Positions 1 through 10,221 of a stretch of 64,000 bases of DNA are shown here, in pieces. The notes below the pieces were generated by a model. That model ran no database searches and was not told the DNA's origin. It saw only the letters and a list, made by a program, of their open reading frames with translations. Within the stretch, counting starts at the first letter, position 1. Every line of letters begins with the position of its first letter. Origin of the DNA: Methanoregulaceae archaeon UXB-2016. Lineage in GTDB: Archaea > Halobacteriota > Methanomicrobia > Methanomicrobiales > Methanospirillaceae. The translations under genes and the position numbers were made by a program. Location: NCBI GenBank assembly GCA_004332335.1, contig SISS01000023.1, positions 1 through 64,000 of the forward strand, in the 5' to 3' direction.

Positions 1-704
1 TACGCGATCACCCGAGACCGCCAGGTGACCCTGGCGGTCTATCCCGTGACGAAGGGTACCTCCAGGGTCGCGTACATCGCCCGATGCCTGGACGCGATCG
101 CGACGGCCGGACTGAGGGTCTAGGCACTCTGCCTCGATCGGGAGTTCTACGCGCACAAGCTCATCGCGTTTCTGATGACAGCGAACGTCCCGTTCATCAT
201 CCCGATCAGGAGACACAGCCGTGCGATGAAAAAACTCCTGAACGGGACACAATCACAGTTCAGAGACTATATCATGCGTGGAAAAACGCCGCTCAACCTG
301 AAGATTGCGCTCGCCGTGATGTACGCGAAAGGAAAACGGGGGAACCATGGTGTCGAGAATTTCGGCTATGTGGTCAGCGGCGTACCCTGGAGCCCTCGAC
401 GGATCCACGAGACGTACCGATCACGGTTCGGGATCGAGTCGTCTGCCGAATGCGAAACCAGGTTAAACCTAGAACCTCACCCCGCAATTCGGTGACCCGC
501 TGTCTCTTCGCCATTGTCTCGTTTCTCCTCAAGAACCTCTGGATGGCCGTGCTCTGGACCCGATTCTCGCCCGTGAAACCCGGTCCTCGGACCATCGAGA
601 TGCGCGCGTTTCGGTTTGGCCAGTTCCGACTATTCATCTGGGAAGCGGTGCGATCGACCTTGAAGATCGTGCGCACCATTCCTGCACTCAGAAAACCGGG
701 ATAG
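1..704 (+). pseudogene. ISH3/IS4-type transposase, 5'-truncated and broken
   Basis: The reading frame is already open at base 1 and gives transposase-like sequence (YAITRDRQVTLAVYPVTKG) until an in-frame TAG at 121-123. It resumes at once (ALCLDREFYAHKL) and runs to about 444, where the signature YRSRFGIESS breaks. The rest (RMRNQVKPRTS and on to a TAG at 702-704) lies in another frame. The Y-rich R-F-G-I-E-(S/T)-S-Y-R motif is the E-containing block of DDE transposases of the IS4/ISH3 group. One stop plus one frameshift make it non-functional. The start lies outside the window. A 124-bp copy of its 3' end recurs at 5257-5380. Confidence 0.8.
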
Positions 705-1126
705 TCAAAGGGAACGGGGAACACTGACGAATGAAAGATGACACGGAGGGAAATTAGCGAAGTACTGATGTCCTCGAAGTCCTTCCGGCCGTTGCCGTTG
801 ACGTTGTCAATGACAACGTCGAAGTCGAGATCGGTCGGCGGAACGATGCGCCAGGGACACCGACCGGCAGCTACTTGTCGCCGGCTGAAACCACCCCCAC
901 GTTCAACAACGAAAGCTCCGGGACTCGCACAGTCTCAGTGGGATCCAAAGATACGACGGGACAGGACGTGGGCCGAGTCATGGCAACGGCTCATCCCGGA
1001 TGAAAAACCCCGGGATGTCCAATGGCAGTTCCGGAGGATATTTTTCCCGTGTTCAGTGCCAGAAGAGCAGTTTTTTCGAAGTTTTTTGGGAATCCGGACT
1101 CAAAATGGTTTACCTTCTGCCGACAC
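705..1126. other. Intergenic, decayed; possible gene fragment
   Basis: No start-bearing gene is convincing here. On the + strand an 81-codon stop-free stretch (758-1003) reads like protein (VLEVLPAVAVDVVNDNVEVE), but a TAG sits just before it and no family was recognised. It contains a perfect 21-bp palindrome at 800-820. A GC-rich 8-bp hairpin (CATCCCGG/CCGGGATG, 992-1017) directly at its stop codon looks like a terminator. It may be a gene end left by the insertion that brought the neighbouring cluster. Confidence 0.3.
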
Positions 1127-1846
1127 TCACAGGGATTTCAGAACTCCGTTATCACCCAAAAGGACCGGTGCGAGGGCGACGAGCGCCTCCCTTGTCCGGG
1201 GGCACATGACCGGACTTCCGCCTCTATTGTCCTTTAGATCCATGATCAGCCTCAACAGATCTTCCTTCGTGTCGATATCGTAGCAGGACGGTAGCAACTC
1301 CCATGTCAACCCCAGATCCTCTGCCCGCCCAGTTGTCCGTTCCAGCACAGCAGATGAGCTCCAGACAATTCCATCGAATAGTGCCGGCACATGGACCCGG
1401 GATCCTATCAGATAATACCCCCCGTCATCACACGGCCCGAGGACCACATCGGTTTCATTCAGCCGGATAAATGCCCGGCGGATTGCATCCTGCGGTAGAT
1501 GGGGAGTATCGCTTGCGACGATGACGAGTTTCCGGTACCCCTGGGAGAACAGCCTTCGGGAGACCCGTGAGAGCCGATTCCCCAGATCCCCCGTTCCTTG
1601 CGGAATGCACTCCACGGGGCGGGGAAACATCCGGGAGAAAAAATCCCGGGCGGTGTACGGATCGTATGCAATGAACAGGTCCGCCTCGGGGATTCCGGAA
1701 GTCAGCCCGACCGTGTCGAGGAGAAACGCACCGTAGACATCCGCTGCTTCGCGCGGGGTGAGCGGTGGGCAGAGGCGGGTCTTGACCTTTCCGGGCTCCG
1801 GCTGTTTTGCCATGATGGCGATGGCTGATCCCGACCGGTTCGTCAT
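1127..1846 (-). CDS. TIGR04282/DUF2064 glycosyltransferase-like protein
   Basis: About 239 aa with a nucleotide-sugar-transferase (GT-A-like) fold: N-terminal IAIMAKQPEPGKVKTRLCP, then IVASDTPHLP and LGPCDDGGYYLIG, which are the hallmark blocks of DUF2064/TIGR04282. The family is named for co-occurrence with arsenosugar biosynthesis genes; its precise reaction is not established. The ATG at 1846 overlaps the upstream methyltransferase stop as ATGA, so translation is coupled and this is the last gene of a four-gene operon. The C-terminal ~25 residues go beyond the usual family end. Family assignment is strong, substrate unknown. Confidence 0.85.
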   Translation of the reverse strand: MTNRSGSAIAIMAKQPEPGKVKTRLCPPLTPREAADVYGAFLLDTVGLTSGIPEADLFIAYDPYTARDFFSRMFPRPVECIPQGTGDLGNRLSRVSRRLFSQGYRKLVIVASDTPHLPQDAIRRAFIRLNETDVVLGPCDDGGYYLIGSRVHVPALFDGIVWSSSAVLERTTGRAEDLGLTWELLPSCYDIDTKEDLLRLIMDLKDNRGGSPVMCPRTREALVALAPVLLGDNGVLKSL

Positions 1847-2640
1847 GCAGTCTTCTTCGCAACCCATAACCCGCGTCCGACCTTCCCCTCGCGTGAGGCT
1901 TTCTCCCAGCAGGCGATTCCCTCTTCGACTGCTTCATAGAACTCCCCGCCGAACCGCCGGATGATCTCTGGCCTGAGTTCTTCCCGGATCATCGCGAGAT
2001 ATCGGGTGAGCTGCAGGGAGAAGTCACGGCTCATATCCAGATCTGCAGTAACTTCCCAGCCGTTCTCTTCCAGCAGGCGGGTATACCCTGCACGGGTCTC
2101 CAGGTTGGGAAAGAGCATGAATCCGAGGAGTGGAGCGAGTTCCTCATCCGAGATGCCGTCGTTCAGGATCCAGTCGGTGAAGGCGAGGGTGCCACCGGGT
2201 TTTATGACCCTGCCGGCTTCGCGGATCAACCGCTCTTTATCAGTGACATAGCACCAGGCGTCCTGTCCCCAGACGATATCGAAGGACGATCTCCTGAATG
2301 GCAGGTCGAGGGCATTTCCCAGCCGGAATGTGACCCTCTCGTCCAACCCGGCAGCGGATGCCCGCCGGGTTGCCTCCTCCACCATCGCCGGCGTGGCATC
2401 GATCCCGGTGACCCTGCACCCGAAATCCCTGGCAAGCTGACAGGCTGGCCCTCCCAGGGCACTGCAGATGTCGAGCACCAGGGAATCGTTTTCAATCCCT
2501 GCCATGGTTGCCAGTTCGGTAGTGGCAAGGGGGCCCCCGATATGGATCTCCTCTCCCATCACCATCTCCCAAAGGGTGCCAACCGCCCCCGAATATGCGT
2601 CGCTCACGTCGCCGACGCTGATGTCAATACTCCTGGTCAT
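1843..2640 (-). CDS. Class I SAM-dependent methyltransferase
   Basis: 265 aa. Motif I is VLDICSALGGPACQLA, followed by VTGIDATPAMV, and WGQDAWCYV in the position where sarcosine/dimethylglycine-type N-methyltransferases have W-S-Q-D-A. The post-motif KPGGTLAFTDW is also typical. ArsM-type arsenite methyltransferases share the fold, but their conserved cysteine pattern is not clear here, so the substrate is open. The start at 2640 is chosen over longer options because it follows a GGAGAAG ribosome site and overlaps the radical SAM stop as ATGA. It sits between a radical SAM enzyme and a DUF2064 protein, implying consecutive steps on one small molecule. Confidence 0.85.
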   Translation of the reverse strand: MTRSIDISVGDVSDAYSGAVGTLWEMVMGEEIHIGGPLATTELATMAGIENDSLVLDICSALGGPACQLARDFGCRVTGIDATPAMVEEATRRASAAGLDERVTFRLGNALDLPFRRSSFDIVWGQDAWCYVTDKERLIREAGRVIKPGGTLAFTDWILNDGISDEELAPLLGFMLFPNLETRAGYTRLLEENGWEVTADLDMSRDFSLQLTRYLAMIREELRPEIIRRFGGEFYEAVEEGIACWEKASREGKVGRGLWVAKKTA

Positions 2641-3749
2641 GCTCTTCTCCGTACCCTGCAGTTGGGGTCTTCTGCCATAATATCGCCGGTCATGTAGTAT
2701 GCGGTGGCCCGGCACCCCCAGCAGACCGCCTGGTTAATACAGCTGCTGCACCTGCTGGAACTGTCGGGCTCCCGGAGCGGCAGGAAGAGCAGCTCGCGCC
2801 GGTGCCTGTCGACGATCTCCCCGAATGGCTCTTGGTTCACGTTCCCGAATCCCTGCCGGATGACGGAACACGGGGTGAGATCCCCCTCAATGGTGATGCA
2901 GACAGTCCCGCCACAGTAAAACTTGTTGGTATCCATCGTACTCATCGAAATGTCAGATCCCGGATAGTTCAGCTGGTCGCGAATACCGATGGCGTGCTCG
3001 ATCTGCGGCCCTGAAGGTACCCATTCCGGGTGTTCCGTGCCGAGGCCCGCTGCGCAGATCTGGGTCAGGCAGGTCCTGATACCCTTTCCGGCGAAGTGCC
3101 GGATGGTGCGTTCCACGTCTTTGCCCGACAGCGGGCGGGTGAACGTGATACAGTTGATGATCTCTCCGGGCGGTTTTCCGCACGCAAGGAGATTCTCCAC
3201 ACCACGCAGGATTGCCTCCTTCTTCGTCCCGGGTTCCCCGGTATGAAGCAGCTGGTAGATCTCCTCGTCCAGGCTGTCGAGATGGACGCTGACAAAACCC
3301 CCTGGTGTAACCCGGGCGACCTGGCGTGCAACAGCGGGATCGGCAAGCGGGATCCCACTCGTCCAGATATTGTTGACAAGCCCGAGATCCCGGGCCTCCC
3401 GTGCGAGCTCGTACCAGTCATCGCGGCAGAGGGGATCTCCCCCGAGCCAGTCGATCGCCCGGACTCCCTCAGCCGTTACCTCACGGAGGATCCGGTGGAT
3501 CGTGGCCGCTGGGATCTCGGCAGCACGGGCGTCCTGTGCCGATGCGTAACAGTACCGGCACCCTCCGTTGCAGGAGAGGCAGGATTCGATCTGCAGCGAA
3601 TAGACCCGGTTCTCTTTAAAATACCGGACGACCCCGGCATGATCCGGGTGAAGGCACCCCTGTGCGGAGACCGAGCCGGGATCTGTCCGGGCAGGTGCGT
3701 GCTGAGGTCCGTCCTTCAAAGGAGGAGTAAAGGGCTGCACGTGTTCCAT
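2637..3749 (-). CDS. Radical SAM/SPASM-type enzyme
   Basis: 370 aa. The radical SAM [4Fe-4S] motif is CNGGCRYCYA (near residue 60), preceded by YSLQIESCLS. The C-terminal third carries a SPASM-like cysteine set: FYCGGTVCITIEGDLTPCS, then CSSCINQAVCWGCRA and a final C near the end, suggesting one or two auxiliary clusters. Such enzymes modify peptides or small molecules. It is not the arsenosugar ArsS type (TIGR04167 with DUF3641), which lacks this SPASM-like tail. Gene order is membrane protein, this gene (4-bp gap), methyltransferase (ATGA overlap). It is the most informative gene for the cluster chemistry. Confidence 0.85.
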   Translation of the reverse strand: MEHVQPFTPPLKDGPQHAPARTDPGSVSAQGCLHPDHAGVVRYFKENRVYSLQIESCLSCNGGCRYCYASAQDARAAEIPAATIHRILREVTAEGVRAIDWLGGDPLCRDDWYELAREARDLGLVNNIWTSGIPLADPAVARQVARVTPGGFVSVHLDSLDEEIYQLLHTGEPGTKKEAILRGVENLLACGKPPGEIINCITFTRPLSGKDVERTIRHFAGKGIRTCLTQICAAGLGTEHPEWVPSGPQIEHAIGIRDQLNYPGSDISMSTMDTNKFYCGGTVCITIEGDLTPCSVIRQGFGNVNQEPFGEIVDRHRRELLFLPLREPDSSSRCSSCINQAVCWGCRATAYYMTGDIMAEDPNCRVRRRA

Positions 3750-3753
3750 AGAA

Positions 3754-4410
3754 TCACTGCCCGAAGATGCCGATCGATGCCAGAGGAATAATCAGCATCA
3801 GAACCGACCAGTAAAAACCCGCCCGTTGGATACTGAACCCCCGTATCTCCTTCACATAATGCCCGGCGATTGCAAACATCATGAGGGCCAGGACCATTGC
3901 GTTGAAGACGGTTGTCGAATATTCGTGCTCTACCGGGAGGTAGGTGAGATACGGAGCTGCATTGATCCATCGTACCATGAAAAAGATGAGGGGCATGTGA
4001 GCGATGCCGATGTAGGATAGTACCGGGAGGTGGATCTTCAGCCAGAATCCCGCCTTCGGGCCGGCAACCAGGAGTGGCCGCTTCATCTTCCATTCCGCGG
4101 CCACGACCATGATAATTGCCCCCAGCAATACACCCTCCATGAGTGTTGCCACAGCTCCCGACCAGTACGCAAGTTCGGTCGGAATTGTGATAAAGGAGGC
4201 GACCAATGATATCACACCCGTAGATACCGACGGACGGAAAGACGCAATCCCGACAATGATTAAGATGAGAGCAAATGCGAAGTTATGGGCCCACCGGGGG
4301 TCTGAGTCGTACAGGTGGAATGCAGGCCCGAGCCAGAAAAGGAGCCAGGCAAGACCCAGCAGGAAGATACCTGTCCCGGTTGTCATCCATGGCCCGGGTT
4401 CGAATTTCAT
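3754..4410 (-). CDS. Polytopic membrane protein of unknown function
   Basis: About 218 aa, with six or seven hydrophobic segments (for example GIFLLGLAWLLFWLG, FALILIIVGIASF, LLGAIIMVVAAEW, LPVLSYIGIAHMPLIFFMV and a C-terminal SVLMLIIPLASIGIFG). No family was recognised. It starts the minus-strand operon and ends 4 bp before the radical SAM gene, so a role in export of the product or membrane anchoring of the pathway is inferred only from position. ATG at 4410 is preferred to a GTG at 4425. The divergent glycosyltransferase begins 21 bp away, so both promoters must overlap the two coding starts or the genes use very short leaders. Confidence 0.7.
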   Translation of the reverse strand: MKFEPGPWMTTGTGIFLLGLAWLLFWLGPAFHLYDSDPRWAHNFAFALILIIVGIASFRPSVSTGVISLVASFITIPTELAYWSGAVATLMEGVLLGAIIMVVAAEWKMKRPLLVAGPKAGFWLKIHLPVLSYIGIAHMPLIFFMVRWINAAPYLTYLPVEHEYSTTVFNAMVLALMMFAIAGHYVKEIRGFSIQRAGFYWSVLMLIIPLASIGIFGQ

Positions 4411-4431
4411 AAAAGCGAATTCCACTCGTGA

Positions 4432-5160
4432 ATGAATAACTGTTTGGAAACCACGGGGGGCACGTCGCTTCTGGTCTCAATCGTCACCCCGGTGCTGAAC
4501 GAGGAGGCCGAGATACAGGGGTTTCTCGATCATCTTACCGGGTTGCAGGAACCGTTCGAAATCATCATTGTCGATGGCGGAAGTGCCGATACCACCTGTG
4601 CCCTCATCCGGGACCATGCCGGAAAAATCCCCGTAAACGTGAACCTTCTTTCAGCCCCGAAAGGAAGGAGCACCCAGATGAATGCGGGTGCGGTGGCAGC
4701 ACGAGGAGAGATCCTCCTGTTCCTCCACGCCGATTGTCGTATCCCTGCCGATTCACTCCGGGTTATTTCGGAAGCCTGCAGGGTACCCGGCGTGTGCGGC
4801 GGGGCATTCACCCAGAATTGCAGGGACGCCGGTCTCTTCCCCGCGGTCAGCTGCAAAGTTGCCAGTGCCCTTGCCGCCTGGTCCCGAATATATTTCGGTG
4901 ATTTCGGGATCTTCGTTCAGCGGGATGTTTTTTTTGCAGCGGGAGGGTTTGCGGTCATCCCGTTCTGCGAGGACATCGAATTTTGCCGGTCTGCCCGCCG
5001 ATTTGGCAGGATGGTGCAGATCGACCGGTTCATTCAGAGTTCCCCACGACGGTTTGAACGCGTGGGGAGAACGAAACTGACAGCGGTGTATATTCTTGCA
5101 ACCGTGCTGAACCTGGCCGGTATACGCCCCGTTTTCCTCAGGCGCTTTATCGTTGATTAG
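4432..5160 (+). CDS. TIGR04283-type family 2 glycosyltransferase
   Basis: 242 aa GT2 protein. N-terminal VSIVTPVLNEEAEIQGFL, IIIVDGGSADTT, then GRSTQMNAGAVAARGEILLF and LHADC (the D-x-D-equivalent metal site) match TIGR04283, annotated as an arsenosugar biosynthesis glycosyltransferase. FGDFGIFVQRDVFFAAGGF and CEDIEFC are the acceptor-side motifs. It is divergent from the four-gene minus-strand operon, and with the DUF2064 protein it forms the usual TIGR04282/TIGR04283 pair. Arsenic chemistry is inferred from family names and is unproven. Confidence 0.85.
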   Translation: MNNCLETTGGTSLLVSIVTPVLNEEAEIQGFLDHLTGLQEPFEIIIVDGGSADTTCALIRDHAGKIPVNVNLLSAPKGRSTQMNAGAVAARGEILLFLHADCRIPADSLRVISEACRVPGVCGGAFTQNCRDAGLFPAVSCKVASALAAWSRIYFGDFGIFVQRDVFFAAGGFAVIPFCEDIEFCRSARRFGRMVQIDRFIQSSPRRFERVGRTKLTAVYILATVLNLAGIRPVFLRRFIVD

Positions 5161-5734
5161 GGGCGGCATCCCGGAGATCCCCCAGCTTCCCCTCGTATAA
5201 GGCCGGGACGGCGGCGGGACGGGACCGGTCCCTGTCCTTGTGCACGTTACGTCCGTGGACCATCGAGATGCGCGCGTTCCGATTTGGCCTATTCCGGCTG
5301 ATAATCTGGGAAGCGGTACGATCGACCTTGAAGGCCATGCGGAACAATTCTGCACTCCGAAACCCGGGATAGCCAAAGGGAGGAAGGAGCGCGAAAAAAT
5401 GAAAGGTGGTATCGAGGGAGATTTGGACAGTACTGGGCATTGCGTCCAATGAGTTGGGTGCCGAGGCTCTCTTGCCGAACCGTCGGTCAGCATCACGTAC
5501 CCTCGAGGGGCGGGAATCCCGAACCGCTGCGTGTGAACCAGTCCCGTCTATTGGCCTGTTACACGGTCATAGCGAGGCCGTGCCGCTCCCTCTTCTCCAA
5601 GGCCGACCTGTGTGTGCGAGAACCGGGTGGGCGAGGATTGCCGCGAGCGGGGCCGGATGATTGGGCGCAACCAAGTTTCTGCGGCGCATGTTCTCTACTG
5701 CGGCCGTGCCGTCGCGGTGAGCGGCCCGGGCTCA
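5161..5734. other. Intergenic region with IS remnant
   Basis: Apart from the transposase remnant listed separately (5257-5380), I recognise no gene in this stretch. Open frames exist on both strands but show no family motif and overlap one another, as expected in GC-rich non-coding DNA. Confidence 0.4.
5257..5380 (+). mobile_element. 3' remnant of the ISH3/IS4-type transposase
   Basis: 124 bp that align without gaps to 589-712; hand alignment gives 19 mismatches (about 85% identity). Translation gives the same C-terminus (TIEMRAFRFG, then WEAVRSTLK, ending at a TAG). Both remnants have the same orientation, so the five-gene cluster between them is bracketed by direct repeats about 4.7 kb apart. 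Nothing 5' of the copy resembles the rest of the transposase. Confidence 0.85.
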
Positions 5735-5980
5735 TCACCGACCTTTCCAGCCTTCCTGCGCTACGTCGTCCGCAGAGGTGTACTGCCGGTCAGGCATCCT
5801 GACCAGGAGGTCTATGAGCGCACCGGGAGCGCACCGCCACCGGGCCTCGCGTCCGAGGTCCTCCTTTCCGACCGTGTAGTGTAGACCCCGCAGGACGCCA
5901 GTGATCAGGCCGGCCGCCACCTTCTCCTGAGCCCGTTGGCTCATGCCCCCGAGTCCGCCCCCATGATCCTGATCAACCAT
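5735..5980 (-). CDS. DUF2795 domain protein
   Basis: 81 aa. After a Gly-rich N-terminus (DQDHGGGLGGMSQRAQEKVA) it shows the DUF2795 pattern: LRGLHYTVGKEDLGREARW, a helix with APGALIDLLVRMP, and the terminal DRQYTSADDV. DUF2795 proteins are small, helical and uncharacterised. A GGGGGA stretch lies upstream of the ATG. A broken paralogue lies about 0.4 kb further on the same strand (6381-6644), so the pair arose by duplication or was acquired together. Confidence 0.7.
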   Translation of the reverse strand: MVDQDHGGGLGGMSQRAQEKVAAGLITGVLRGLHYTVGKEDLGREARWRCAPGALIDLLVRMPDRQYTSADDVAQEGWKGR

Positions 5981-6380
5981 GGTCCCCCGTTACCGTGCCG
6001 TGACCGGCACTACACGTCAATCAGTCACCGGGCATATCAGTTGTTTGCCTTCTGTGTCATCGTCTCCCCCTTGATGTCGGCGCCAAGATTACCATGATCT
6101 CTCCAGGGCCGGATGAGAAGGCGATCTCTAGGCATCGCCTCGAGGCATGATGACTGATTGACCCGCCGTCAATGGCCGTGGCGAGATCGCCCATGTCTTT
6201 TTGGTTTACCTCGGTTCCCTTGACACCGGCCTCGCTAGCCTTTGCCCGGACCCAAATCCGGGACCCGTCTGCACCGGCGGAGCTCTGCCGGCACCTCCAG
6301 GGTCTGGAAGGGAATCGGAAAAAGGGGTGCGGTCGACAAGAAATGTACCCACCTGCGGTCTCACCGCCCGAAATGGGTGC
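5981..6380. other. Intergenic, no recognised gene
   Basis: 400 bp between the two DUF2795 copies. On the minus strand a stop-free stretch ending near 6057 reads as plausible protein (KGTEVNQKDMGDLATAIDGG) but has no clear start and no family that I know; it may be a decayed gene end. Confidence 0.35.
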
Positions 6381-6644
6381 TCACTGCCCTTTCCAGGTAT
6401 TCCGGGCTTCCGCGACCGCGCCGTCGGCCGACGCATACGTCCGCACGGGCATCCTTCTGAGGACGTCCGTGACCAGGCCCGGAGCGTTCCGCTGCTGTGC
6501 CTCTCGGGCGAGGCCCTCCTTGGCCAGAGGGTAATCCGGGCTCCGGAGGGCCCCCATGATCATGGTGGTCGCTATCTCCTCGTTGGCCTTGTTTCACATG
6601 CCTCCGAGCCTCCCGCCGATACCGCCGTGCTGCTGGTCTGCCAT
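6381..6644 (-). pseudogene. DUF2795 paralogue with in-frame stop
   Basis: Reading from the ATG at 6644 gives MADQQHGGIGGRLGGM, matching the Gly-rich start of the neighbour at 5735-5980, then a TGA stop, then ANEEIATTMIMGALRSPDYP and the DUF2795 core (APGLVTDVLRRMP, then RTYASADGAV). Either the gene is dead or a 60-aa form starts at the internal ATG at 6563, which would keep only the domain. Sequencing error cannot be excluded. Confidence 0.65.
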
Positions 6645-6785
6645 GATTCCTGTTCCCATGCCGGCAGCGGCACGGGCCGCCTTATCCGAATGGGACATAT
6701 CAATTGTCGCTGGCTATGGCCCTCGCCTTCACGCGCCCGATCTCCCCTCGCCCACTCTCTTTCCGGACTGCGGACGGGAAGGGCA

Positions 6786-7340
6786 TCACCGCTGTATCTC
6801 GACCCCGACCTCGTTTCGGCGGAGGAAACCGGGCGTGTACGGAGCGTTGTACCGCATCAGGAACGGCGTGCCCCGGGTGGCGACGCCGGCCTTCCTCAGT
6901 TCCTCGAACAGCCGCGCCACGACCGCCTCGACGTCGTCCTCGTGGGCGTGCCCGCTGAAGCGGATGACCGCGACCTCCCTCGCCTGAACCTCCTCGATCC
7001 GAATCCTTTCGTCGGTCGGCTCCGGGATATCGTCCCGCGTTCGCCCCGCGGGCATCACAAACGACATCGTGCCCGGCCCGGAAATGACGGGGGCGGTCAT
7101 CGGGATCTCTTGAGATGTGATCACCGGCGAAGTCATGGGGATCTGTTCGGACGTGATCACCGGCGAAGTCATGGGAATGGTGTTCCGGGCGCGATTGCTG
7201 CCCGTGATGTAGGCGAAGAGCAGGCGAAATCCAGTGTCTTCTCCATCGTCCTCCACGGTCGCGAGGACAACAGGGGGATACAGCCGGAAGTCAGCCTCGC
7301 CGGCCTTCCCGGTCACTTCGTAGGGAATCGTTTCCGTCAT
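6786..7340 (-). CDS. SOUL-family heme-binding protein
   Basis: 184 aa, starting MTETIPYEV, the usual beginning of SOUL/HEBP proteins; ATG at 7340 is therefore preferred to a start 27 bp upstream. Family blocks: FRLLFAYITGSNRARNTIPM, the M-T-(S/A)-P-V-I motif, MSFVMPAGRT, AVIRFSGHA and a C-terminal RRNEVGVEIQR. The M-T-x-P-V-I block occurs three times in 12-residue steps (IPMTSPVITSEQ, IPMTSPVITSQE, IPMTAPVISGPG), more regular than in typical members. Cytoplasmic; binds heme or tetrapyrrole. It stands alone between decayed sequences. Confidence 0.85.
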   Translation of the reverse strand: MTETIPYEVTGKAGEADFRLYPPVVLATVEDDGEDTGFRLLFAYITGSNRARNTIPMTSPVITSEQIPMTSPVITSQEIPMTAPVISGPGTMSFVMPAGRTRDDIPEPTDERIRIEEVQAREVAVIRFSGHAHEDDVEAVVARLFEELRKAGVATRGTPFLMRYNAPYTPGFLRRNEVGVEIQR

Positions 7341-8066
7341 GCGTCGCTCCAATTCCTGCACGGGCACTATTCCCCCGGGAACAGATGGATGTATCGTTCA
7401 CCGGGGGCATCCCGCTGCACGGATGAATGCTGACCTCGTCCTCAACGGAGACCCCGGAATCCTTTTCGGGAGGGATTGACAGCCGGGACACCTCTTCCGG
7501 GTCCATGTTCCGAATCCAGCCTTCCAGGAGATCAGGAGACAGGTTCGAACCAGGGCCACACGCGGATGCACGATGAAGAGGTGATCATCGACGGGGGCAC
7601 GAAACCGCGGGAAACCAGCATTGCCGCCCGGCATATCACCATCGCATACGCGATGGACGAACGCAGGACCCCGCCGGGCACACCCGACGTGCCCAGCGCC
7701 CGGACAAACGCGACCGCTCCGGGGGGTGCGCCCGGCATCCGGCATAGTGCGGCACATGATAACACAGGGACTCCGTCGGAACTCTGCCACAGGCAGATGC
7801 GAGGAGGGAGCAGGCAGGTACCGTGTTCGCCTCGCCGTGGGCGTTTAGGGGGTGGGTCGGAGAGAGACGGCAGGAAAGGGTTCGGAACTCCCCCGGTGCG
7901 CACGGAGCCCCGTCCACACCCCTGTCCGGCCGAAAATCTGGACCATCATCGTTCGCTCCCAACGGTGTGTTCCCATCCGGCCTCCCGAGGCAGGAGCGGC
8001 TTATCTCCTCCGACTCGCGGAGAGTATTTATCGCGGCCATTCCCATTTCCACAGAGCCGAGCTTCA
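7341..8066. other. Intergenic, no recognised gene
   Basis: 726 bp with several overlapping GC-rich open frames on both strands. None shows recognisable motifs or a ribosome site, so I call no gene. It may contain the promoter of the 8067 gene. Confidence 0.4.
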
Positions 8067-8875
8067 TGGACGCGATCCGAATCGTACCTGGCGGGAACTA
8101 CGAGGGAACAGGCAGGAGCCGGGGGCTTGCTCGGGGCCTCCTGGTCTTTTTCGGCGACCTGAACCTGACCGGCGAAGGGATGGGCATCGGTGGCGTGGCG
8201 GTCAGGGACCGAACATGCACGTACTTCTCCCGCTCGTGGAACGACCGGGCGGATGGCGACGGATTCGGGAGGACATATACCCTCGATACCCGCATTAGCT
8301 GGATTATCATGGGGAGAACATCCCCCCTTCTGACGCGCTGGATCGAGTCCGCTGTCGGCGCCTACATGCGCCTGCCCTCCCTCCAGGGCCTGCTGCTTCG
8401 CGCCGTGCTCCCGCTGCGCAGCGCTCTGGGGATCGACTCGCTCTTCGAGGCCGTACCCCCCGTTGGAGAGGTCTCGGTCACCTGCGCCGTGCAGGGGGGG
8501 CATGTGGACGTCCGGGTGGAGGTCCATCCCCCGATAAAATCGGGGAGTACGGTCTGCCTCCTTAACGAGCTGAGTGCCGAATGGTTCAATGCGGCGGTCC
8601 GAAACGAAGAGATCGCCCCGCCCCCGCCGGGATGGGAGGCGATCGGTCCGCACGATCCGCCGGCCTACCTGTATGACCCCGAACACGGAGTGCGGTTCAC
8701 CGTAACCAGCCCTTCTGTCTCTCCGCCGGTGCCGTCGAGACTGTTCTGGGGCAGGGAGCGGACCGGGGACCTCTGCTGGGCGGGTTTCTGCCTCGAGCTG
8801 GGTCCCCTTGAAGATCTGCAGGAACCGCTGGAGGTCCGATACGGCATCGATTTTACCGGGGATGGGTGCCCATGA
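8067..8875 (+). CDS. Conserved-looking protein of unknown function
   Basis: 269 aa from ATG 8067 (MDAIRIVPGGNYEGTG); soluble, with no signal peptide or membrane segment. The sequence is beta-rich and ends in a segment with YLYDPEHGVRFTVTSPS and GDLCWAGFCLELGPLEDL. I do not recognise the family. Its TGA overlaps the ATG of the next gene (ATGA), so it is co-translated with a B12-binding radical SAM enzyme and probably acts with it, for example as a partner or a binding protein for its substrate (inference from coupling only). A longer reading upstream is open, but 8067 gives the first plausible start. Confidence 0.6.
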
Positions 8876-10221
8876 ATCCGCCATCTCCCTCCGGGGTCGC
8901 CCTCGTGTACCCCTACTTCCGGAGTAAGGACCCGGTCGAGAAGCTCTTCCCCCCGCTGGGGATCGCCTACCTCGCGAGCCAGCTCGGGGAACGCGGGGTC
9001 CCGGTAAGGGTCGCCGACTGCACGTTCCAAACGTTCGACGACGTCGTCGATAGGATTGCAGGCGCCCGGCCGGCCATCGTGGGTCTGTACGTCATGGTCA
9101 CGATGAGCAGGAACGCATTCGACCTGCTGGCGGCCCTGCGGAAACTCCTGCCGGCCACCCTTTTCGTTGCCGGAGGTCCCCTGCCGACCATCCATCCGCG
9201 GATGTTTGCCGGCAGATTCGACGTGATATTCCGCGGAGAGAGCGACGTGACGTTTCCGGATTTCTGTCGCGATTATCTCTCGGCAGGTCGGGGGCCGGCC
9301 TTCCTGAATACCATGAAGAGCGAGGACTACCCTGGTCTCTACGCGGAGATTGACGGTCGTCTCGTGGCGACTCCCCCCGTACATTACCCTGCAGAGGTCC
9401 TCGACCGGCTCCCTCTTCCGGACCGAACCGGGTTCGACCACCACAGGTACCAGGAAGCGATGGAGGAGATCGCCGGGCTGAAGCAGACCAGCATAATCGT
9501 CACGAGGGGCTGCCCGTTCTCCTGCGATTTCTGCTCGAAACCCGTCTGGGGGGATCTCTTCAGGAAGCCCCCACTTGAGAAAGTATTCCGGGAGATCGAT
9601 GCGATCCTGTCTCTCGGGTACACCAGTCTCTGGATCGCCGACGACTGCTTCACGCTCGACACGGACTATCTCGCGGAGTTCTGCCACGGCATGATCCGCC
9701 GCGGGACGCCCATCGGCTGGACCTGTCTCTCCCGGGTCGAGCGGCTCACCCCGGGACTCGTCGACCTCATGAAGCGTGCGGGGTGCCTCCGGGTCTACCT
9801 CGGGCTCGAATCGGGAAGTAACGACACCCTTCGCCTGATGAACAAGCGGGTTACCGTCGAACAGGGAACCCGGGCCGTCGAACTATTCTCCCGGGCAAGC
9901 GTGGGCACGGCGGGGTTCTTCATGGTCGGATACCCGGGAGAGACGATCGAGGATATCGAATCGACCTTCGACCTGGCGCTCTCACTTCCGCTCGACGAGA
10001 TCTCGTTCACCGTACCCCTTCCCCTGCCCGGGACACCCCTTTTCAACCGCGTCGCCGATCTCGGTTCCTGGGAGGACTGGGAGATCTCGAACCAGGTGAA
10101 ATTGGTGTTCCCCTCGGCGTTCGATGAAGACTGGCTCGGGCGTCGGATCGCCGAGACCATGGCGGCCTTCAGGACGAAGAAGGGCGGTGCAGGTCCGGAA
10201 GAGACCTCCGGTCCGTGCTGA
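8872..10221 (+). CDS. B12-binding-domain radical SAM protein
   Basis: 449 aa. Residues ~1-150 form a cobalamin-binding (Rossmann-like) domain (FPPLGIAYLASQLGERG, AGGPLPTIHP, FDVIFRGESDVTF). Residues ~190-400 form the radical SAM barrel with the cluster motif RGCPFSCDFCSK and later GLESGSNDTLRLMNK and GYPGETIEDIESTF. The classic D-x-H-x-x-G cobalamin ligand is not evident. Relatives methylate inactivated carbons or rearrange tetrapyrroles and lipids; the substrate here is unknown. ATG 8872 overlaps the preceding stop (ATGA) and is preferred to the GTG at 8866. Confidence 0.85.
   Translation: MNPPSPSGVALVYPYFRSKDPVEKLFPPLGIAYLASQLGERGVPVRVADCTFQTFDDVVDRIAGARPAIVGLYVMVTMSRNAFDLLAALRKLLPATLFVAGGPLPTIHPRMFAGRFDVIFRGESDVTFPDFCRDYLSAGRGPAFLNTMKSEDYPGLYAEIDGRLVATPPVHYPAEVLDRLPLPDRTGFDHHRYQEAMEEIAGLKQTSIIVTRGCPFSCDFCSKPVWGDLFRKPPLEKVFREIDAILSLGYTSLWIADDCFTLDTDYLAEFCHGMIRRGTPIGWTCLSRVERLTPGLVDLMKRAGCLRVYLGLESGSNDTLRLMNKRVTVEQGTRAVELFSRASVGTAGFFMVGYPGETIEDIESTFDLALSLPLDEISFTVPLPLPGTPLFNRVADLGSWEDWEISNQVKLVFPSAFDEDWLGRRIAETMAAFRTKKGGAGPEETSGPC

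Follow-up and report, generated by a model that had tools for sequence, protein, structure and literature searches.

A co-inherited archaeal gene cluster pairs a radical SAM/SPASM enzyme and a methyltransferase with the "arsenosugar" families TIGR04282 and TIGR04283

Do the protein families TIGR04282 and TIGR04283, both labelled as arsenosugar genes in databases, signal arsenic chemistry in a methanogen, or do they belong to a different pathway? The question arises from five genes at positions 1127-5160 of a 64,000-nucleotide (nt) stretch of DNA from Methanoregulaceae archaeon UXB-2016 (hereafter the window; contig SISS01000023.1 positions 1-64,000, forward strand, assembly GCA_004332335.1). 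The initial annotation of this locus had proposed a compact pathway for a methylated, radical-modified, and glycosylated small molecule, containing arsenic, selenium, or something else, that was not described for methanogens. We confirmed the underlying observation and found it stronger than first claimed: the cluster represents a real, widespread archaeal pathway whose breadth reaches well past methanogens. The arsenosugar reading is based on database names, and the tests we made did not support it. We give about even weight to the reading that the cluster encodes one archaeal pathway whose product would be a small molecule other than a peptide, or a lipid-linked group, that is radical-modified, methylated, and glycosylated.

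Organization and conservation of the cluster

All five open reading frames (ORFs) were confirmed, four on the minus strand and one divergent on the plus strand. The minus-strand genes are transcribed in the order membrane protein (3754-4425, with the ATG at 4410 as the more likely start), radical S-adenosylmethionine (SAM)/SPASM enzyme (2637-3749), SAM-dependent methyltransferase (1843-2640), and TIGR04282/DUF2064 protein (1127-1867). The TIGR04283 family-2 glycosyltransferase (GT2) occupies 4432-5160 on the plus strand, divergent from the other four. Neighboring genes overlap or abut, with the methyltransferase start lying over the radical SAM stop and the TIGR04282 gene overlapping the methyltransferase end.

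We searched for the cluster in an order-level survey of 150 genomes and in a second survey of GTDB representative genomes. The radical SAM protein was found in 21 of the 150 genomes, and the GTDB scan returned 38 radical SAM loci, every one archaeal. Carriers in that scan were Methanoregula, Methanoperedens (anaerobic methanotrophic archaea, ANME-2d), Thermoplasmatota, Lokiarchaeia, Hodarchaeota, Heimdallarchaeota, Sigynarchaeota, and peatland methanogen-like metagenome-assembled genomes (MAGs). The expectation that the pathway was undescribed for methanogens agreed with the literature searched, but its distribution proved far wider than that wording implied. Profile searches placed the methyltransferase gene next to the radical SAM gene in 56/58 archaeal loci, and the other two loci end at contig ends. 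The remaining families accompanied the 58 radical SAM loci less uniformly (TIGR04282-like in 48, TIGR04283-like in 41, membrane protein in 24). TIGR04283 scored above its cut-off in 20/150 genomes of the order, 19 of which also had the radical SAM gene (Fisher p=7e-21; Cochran-Mantel-Haenszel (CMH) test stratified by family, p=1e-12). The five-family set was present in many other genomes, and the reading as one compact pathway is supported. Four to five genes are inherited as a unit, of which the radical SAM and methyltransferase genes are the inseparable core.

Methanomicrobiales and Methanoperedens shared one gene order, and in Lokiarchaeia the glycosyltransferase was relocated to the operon end. 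The TIGR04282- and TIGR04283-related genes of Asgard loci fell below the cut-offs (98 and 169 bits). TIGR04283 was kept in methanogen and ANME loci, and Hodarchaeota and peatland lineages had other glycosyltransferases near the core even where TIGR04283 was missing, which suggests that the glycosyl part is variable and the radical SAM/methyltransferase core fixed. In the radical SAM tree the peatland methanogen-like MAGs branched inside the Asgard clade with good support; this placement points to a probable transfer of the gene block between phyla.

No homologous cluster was found in bacteria, where genomes were scanned solely with patterns close to the query. Among plasmids searched for bacterial relatives, the best match to the radical SAM protein reached 27% identity and belonged to an unrelated locus that contains PqqD. 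A literature search, with paywalled papers outside it, found no description of the archaeal cluster.

Radical SAM/SPASM enzyme

The radical SAM protein matched Pfam Radical_SAM (60.8 bits) and SPASM (23.6 bits; gathering score 21.5), and it has both the CxxxCxxC motif and the C-terminal cysteines of SPASM proteins, arranged as C279-x9-G-x4-C294, C334-x2-C337-x5-C343-x2-C346, and C364. In an alignment of 22 homologues the CxxxCxxC motif, the cysteine in NCIT, and the SPASM cysteines were invariant, and the third SPASM cysteine group was CX2C where CX3C is usual. The SPASM-like cysteine tail noted in the initial annotation was thus borne out. No NCBIfam equivalog fits above its cut-off, so the enzyme belongs to no named family; the closest were NirJ2 (97 bits) and AhbD (92 bits), both with cut-offs of 500. 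The AlphaFold model (predicted local distance difference test score, pLDDT, 83) matched the folds of CteB, SkfB, PqqE, SuiB, and BlsE.

The protein is also not ArsS, as the initial annotation had held. TIGR04167 (ArsS) was not among its 25 best NCBIfam matches, and the best TIGR04167 score in the window genome was 49 bits (cut-off 300). Only 1/199 genomes of the phylum had an ArsS above the cut-off. This rare archaeal ArsS (G167; 349 bits, locus L085, 8987-10009) has cysteines C265, C280, C317, C320, and C328, a layout unlike the SPASM set of the window protein, and no cluster genes, TIGR04282 and TIGR04283 included, were found in 19 kb around it.

Methyltransferase and the arsenic question

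The methyltransferase matched Pfam Methyltransf_11 (76 bits), and its best NCBIfam match was sarcosine/dimethylglycine N-methyltransferase, a family matched by all 21 methyltransferase homologues. This relationship, also named in the initial annotation, is a resemblance only (91 bits, far below the cut-off of 550). The motifs MGExIHxGG and DAWCY were invariant, as were C59 and C130, and FTDW was also kept. An alignment against six genuine ArsM sequences from the same order showed that 21/21 cluster methyltransferases lack all three cysteines with which ArsM binds arsenic. They have G, D, and A/V/I at these positions (A instead of the first G in one homologue), and the N-terminal cysteine group of ArsM was missing as well. 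This comparison rules out the cluster methyltransferase as an ArsM-like enzyme.

Bacterial arsenosugar loci (ArsM, ArsS TIGR04167, TIGR04282, TIGR04283) resemble the window in that both TIGR families, here above their cut-offs, share a cluster with a methyltransferase and a radical SAM enzyme. They differ in that the window has a SPASM-type enzyme in place of ArsS, a methyltransferase without the ArsM cysteines, an additional membrane protein, and no dependence on ArsM. A variant organoarsenical or arsenosugar pathway could still be imagined, with an unlinked ArsM supplying methylated arsenic, the radical SAM enzyme replacing ArsS, and the two TIGR enzymes following. The window genome does encode ArsM (356 bits) and Acr3, both away from the cluster, and ArsM was present in 13/21 cluster genomes vs 27/129 others (p=3e-4 uncorrected; CMH by family p=0.04). 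That mild excess weighs against our preferred non-arsenic reading, but ArsM was missing from 8/21 cluster genomes, including a single-contig genome (G069), Acr3 had no association with the cluster (p=0.34), and neither ArsM nor an arsenic exporter was among those neighbors that were scanned. With the cysteine layouts of both core enzymes added, we consider such a variant quite unlikely. The lack of ArsM cysteines, the eight ArsM-free cluster genomes, and the missing Acr3 association make any arsenic link at most indirect.

TIGR04282 and TIGR04283 owe their "arsenosugar" label to names carried over in databases, and this label has entered ecological interpretation. In a soil metagenomic survey TIGR04282 was scored as a marker of arsenic stress tolerance for flooded grasslands (PMC11237643), and an iodate-reduction study named it as an arsenosugar gene (PMC8801600). 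Our results indicate that both families are unsafe as arsenic markers, and methanogens of flooded grassland-type habitats may carry the cluster.

Selenium

A selenium metabolite, the other element named in the initial annotation, has very little probability in our judgment. The radical SAM protein showed a weak likeness to TrsS (45 bits; cut-off 490), a minor match, and DVU_1556 was the second-best NCBIfam match of the methyltransferase (72 bits; cut-off 155). Both scores of this TrsS/DVU_1556 comparison are well below the cut-offs, and the cluster needs no selenocysteine codon because its reading frames are open. Selenophosphate synthetase (SelD) scored above the cut-off in 0/21 cluster genomes of the order, and the selenium route was set aside for want of a recognized SelD. 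The methylated, radical-modified, and glycosylated product of the initial annotation is retained as the natural reading of the genes, and its arsenic or selenium content is not, given the missing ArsM cysteines, the ArsM-free cluster genomes, and the absence of SelD.

TIGR04282 and TIGR04283 proteins

Both family calls held up. The TIGR04282 protein scored 193 bits (cut-off 134), with additional matches to PF09837 (111 bits) and CofC (30 bits). Residues K21, R23, D43, R90, D112, D189, D191, and D195 (matched-segment numbering) were conserved across 48 loci. We take the motifs KxR, SDxP, and DIDTxxD to be residues of CofC/MobA-type nucleotidyltransferases. Because these are kept, the database name "arsenosugar biosynthesis glycosyltransferase" is probably wrong for this protein, which has a predicted CofC-like nucleotidyltransferase fold. 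The TIGR04283 protein was barely above its cut-off (184.6 vs 182 bits) and matched PF00535 (64 bits); its GT2 motifs HxD, ED, and DGGSxD were conserved among 44 sequences. With the cysteine and motif conservation of the core, all four enzymes thus show conserved catalytic-type residues.

TIGR04283 on plasmids was found mainly in Burkholderia and one cyanobacterium (33-37% identity), and the one such locus that was opened had no linked radical SAM gene. The sole TIGR04283 above the cut-off in the order without a radical SAM gene (G008; L084, 9498-11086) had a divergent TIGR04282 partner. A gene near this pair is presumably a trehalose-6-phosphate synthase.

Peptide and tetrapyrrole readings

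SPASM radical SAM enzymes mostly act on peptides, which weighs against a non-peptide product. We found no small ORF around the cluster that was conserved across clades; those that recurred came from gene content common to a single genus, and the gaps between cluster genes are mostly <150 nt. PqqD had no match in the 21 cluster genomes. The cluster genes are accompanied by neither a precursor peptide nor a PqqD-type recognition protein. A route to a ribosomally synthesized and post-translationally modified peptide (RiPP) was considered weak, with no cross-clade small ORF and no match to PqqD or a RiPP recognition element (RRE).

The nearest well-studied logic is that of mycofactocin, in which MftC, MftF, and MftM carry out radical SAM, GT2, and methyltransferase steps on a peptide-derived core (PMC11778925). 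The archaeal cluster likewise unites a SPASM radical SAM enzyme, an MftF-related GT2, and a SAM methyltransferase in one pathway. It differs in having a CofC-like nucleotidyltransferase and no precursor peptide or PqqD-type MftB that we found, and no MftD or MftE was seen in it. If the precursor peptide were encoded elsewhere, the product could be a mycofactocin-like cofactor of ribosomal origin, which would agree with the SPASM fold being nearest to CteB, SkfB, PqqE, and SuiB, and with matches of the GT2 to MftF and of the radical SAM protein to MftC, each at 59 bits. Those scores are far below the 265- and 280-bit cut-offs, however, and the absence of a conserved small ORF beyond the one-genus background and of any PqqD/RRE match in the 21 cluster genomes leaves this alternative improbable.

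The radical SAM family's best NCBIfam matches, NirJ2, AhbD, and AhbC, raise the alternative of a tetrapyrrole pathway, in which the enzyme would act like NirJ or AhbD on a heme-like or siroheme-derived ring. Scores of 92-97 bits are hardly above the general SPASM background, and the partner genes differ from those of the NirJ/AhbC/AhbD heme and heme d1 enzymes. In three Methanoperedens-type loci (L049, L050, L051) hemL (Aminotran_3), hemC, a tetrapyrrole methylase, and hemD adjoin or lie near the cluster, but this adjacency is confined to one sub-clade. We know of no tetrapyrrole pathway that combines a CofC-like enzyme with a GT2, and we regard this alternative as highly doubtful. The hem genes beside these three clusters may reflect chance or a tetrapyrrole link.

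Membrane protein and a possible lipid-linked glycan

The membrane protein matched no Pfam family. Its predicted model is helical and confident (pLDDT 88.9) but matched no PDB fold at E<0.2, and residues D42, R44, W45, H47, N48, E111, W128, H132, H143, R152, and E166 were invariant in 21 homologues. It was co-inherited with the cluster in three large clades and absent from 18/21 cluster-bearing genomes of the order, and is therefore not essential to the cluster. Its co-inheritance favors the alternative that the cluster modifies a cell-surface or lipid glycan, where the core would be a sugar, linked to polyprenyl phosphate or an archaeal lipid, that undergoes methylation and radical modification, and the Hodarchaeota neighbors fit this as well (a membrane GT2, an AglJ/PpgS-like GT2, and an alpha-1,6-mannosyltransferase-like protein). 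We nevertheless think a lipid glycan unlikely, with the membrane protein dispensable and no flippase or oligosaccharyltransferase among the neighbors scanned.

Proposed pathway

In the preferred single-pathway reading, the precursor would be a small molecule other than a peptide, or a lipid-linked one, on which the radical SAM/SPASM enzyme would make a carbon-centered change (C-C bond formation, oxidation, or decarboxylation). The modified core would next be methylated by the methyltransferase, most likely at N or O, given the likeness of this enzyme to methyltransferases for glycine/sarcosine and phosphoethanolamine. As a CofC-like nucleotidyltransferase, the TIGR04282 protein is predicted to make a nucleoside diphosphate (NDP)-activated donor, from which the TIGR04283 GT2 may move the activated group onto the methylated core to give a methylated glycoside. 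The optional membrane protein could export, anchor, or further modify the product. Such a pathway would follow the tailoring steps of mycofactocin (by a radical SAM enzyme, a GT2, and a methyltransferase) minus the peptide, and not an ArsM/ArsS-type arsenosugar pathway.

Pairwise distances correlated among all five families (r=0.85-0.95), which supports a single pathway, but part of this correlation reflects shared ancestry. Several further points weigh against this scheme. A precursor peptide could lie unlinked elsewhere in the genome. Glycosyltransferase and nucleotidyltransferase families are very broad in their substrates, so that the glycosylated product rests on family knowledge, and the substrate and product of the cluster enzymes are predictions. 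More specifically, and tentatively, we propose that hydrogenotrophic methanogens, ANME-2d, Thermoplasmatota, and Asgard archaea may share a cofactor or lipid head group that is not a peptide, is made by a radical SAM enzyme, and carries methyl and glycosyl groups, its genes having moved as one block. A co-inherited pathway with intact enzymes across methanogens, anaerobic methane oxidizers, and Asgard archaea points to an undescribed metabolite in lineages central to methane cycling and eukaryote origins.

Genomic setting and neighboring genes

The window cluster lies between two direct copies of a multi-copy repeat (583-767 and 5251-5435, both on the plus strand) that share 78% identity over 185 nt. 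The repeat occurred at 17 places in the window genome, several at contig ends, and is probably a mobile-element remnant, an arrangement that fits mobility of the cluster. Guanine-cytosine content in the cluster was below that of the region immediately to its right. No Rfam elements were found within window positions 1-9000.

Genes flanking the cluster varied among genomes. In one Lokiarchaeia locus (L061) the flanks held sulfatases, a TauE-type exporter, and a UbiE-like methyltransferase, and in place of these L064 had a QueG-like iron-sulfur protein beside the cluster. A Methanoperedens MAG carried genes for Ku and a LigD-like ligase, of bacterial-type end joining, near the cluster (L048, 1444-3626). 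Hodarchaeota/Heimdallarchaeota loci (L072-L075) had two co-conserved proteins of 262 and 162 amino acids without Pfam or NCBIfam match next to the radical SAM gene, and a FeoA-domain iron-dependent repressor was also beside it. To the right of the cluster, the window itself encodes a SOUL heme-binding protein (6786-7367), here in methanogen DNA, and a B12-binding radical SAM protein (8866-10221).

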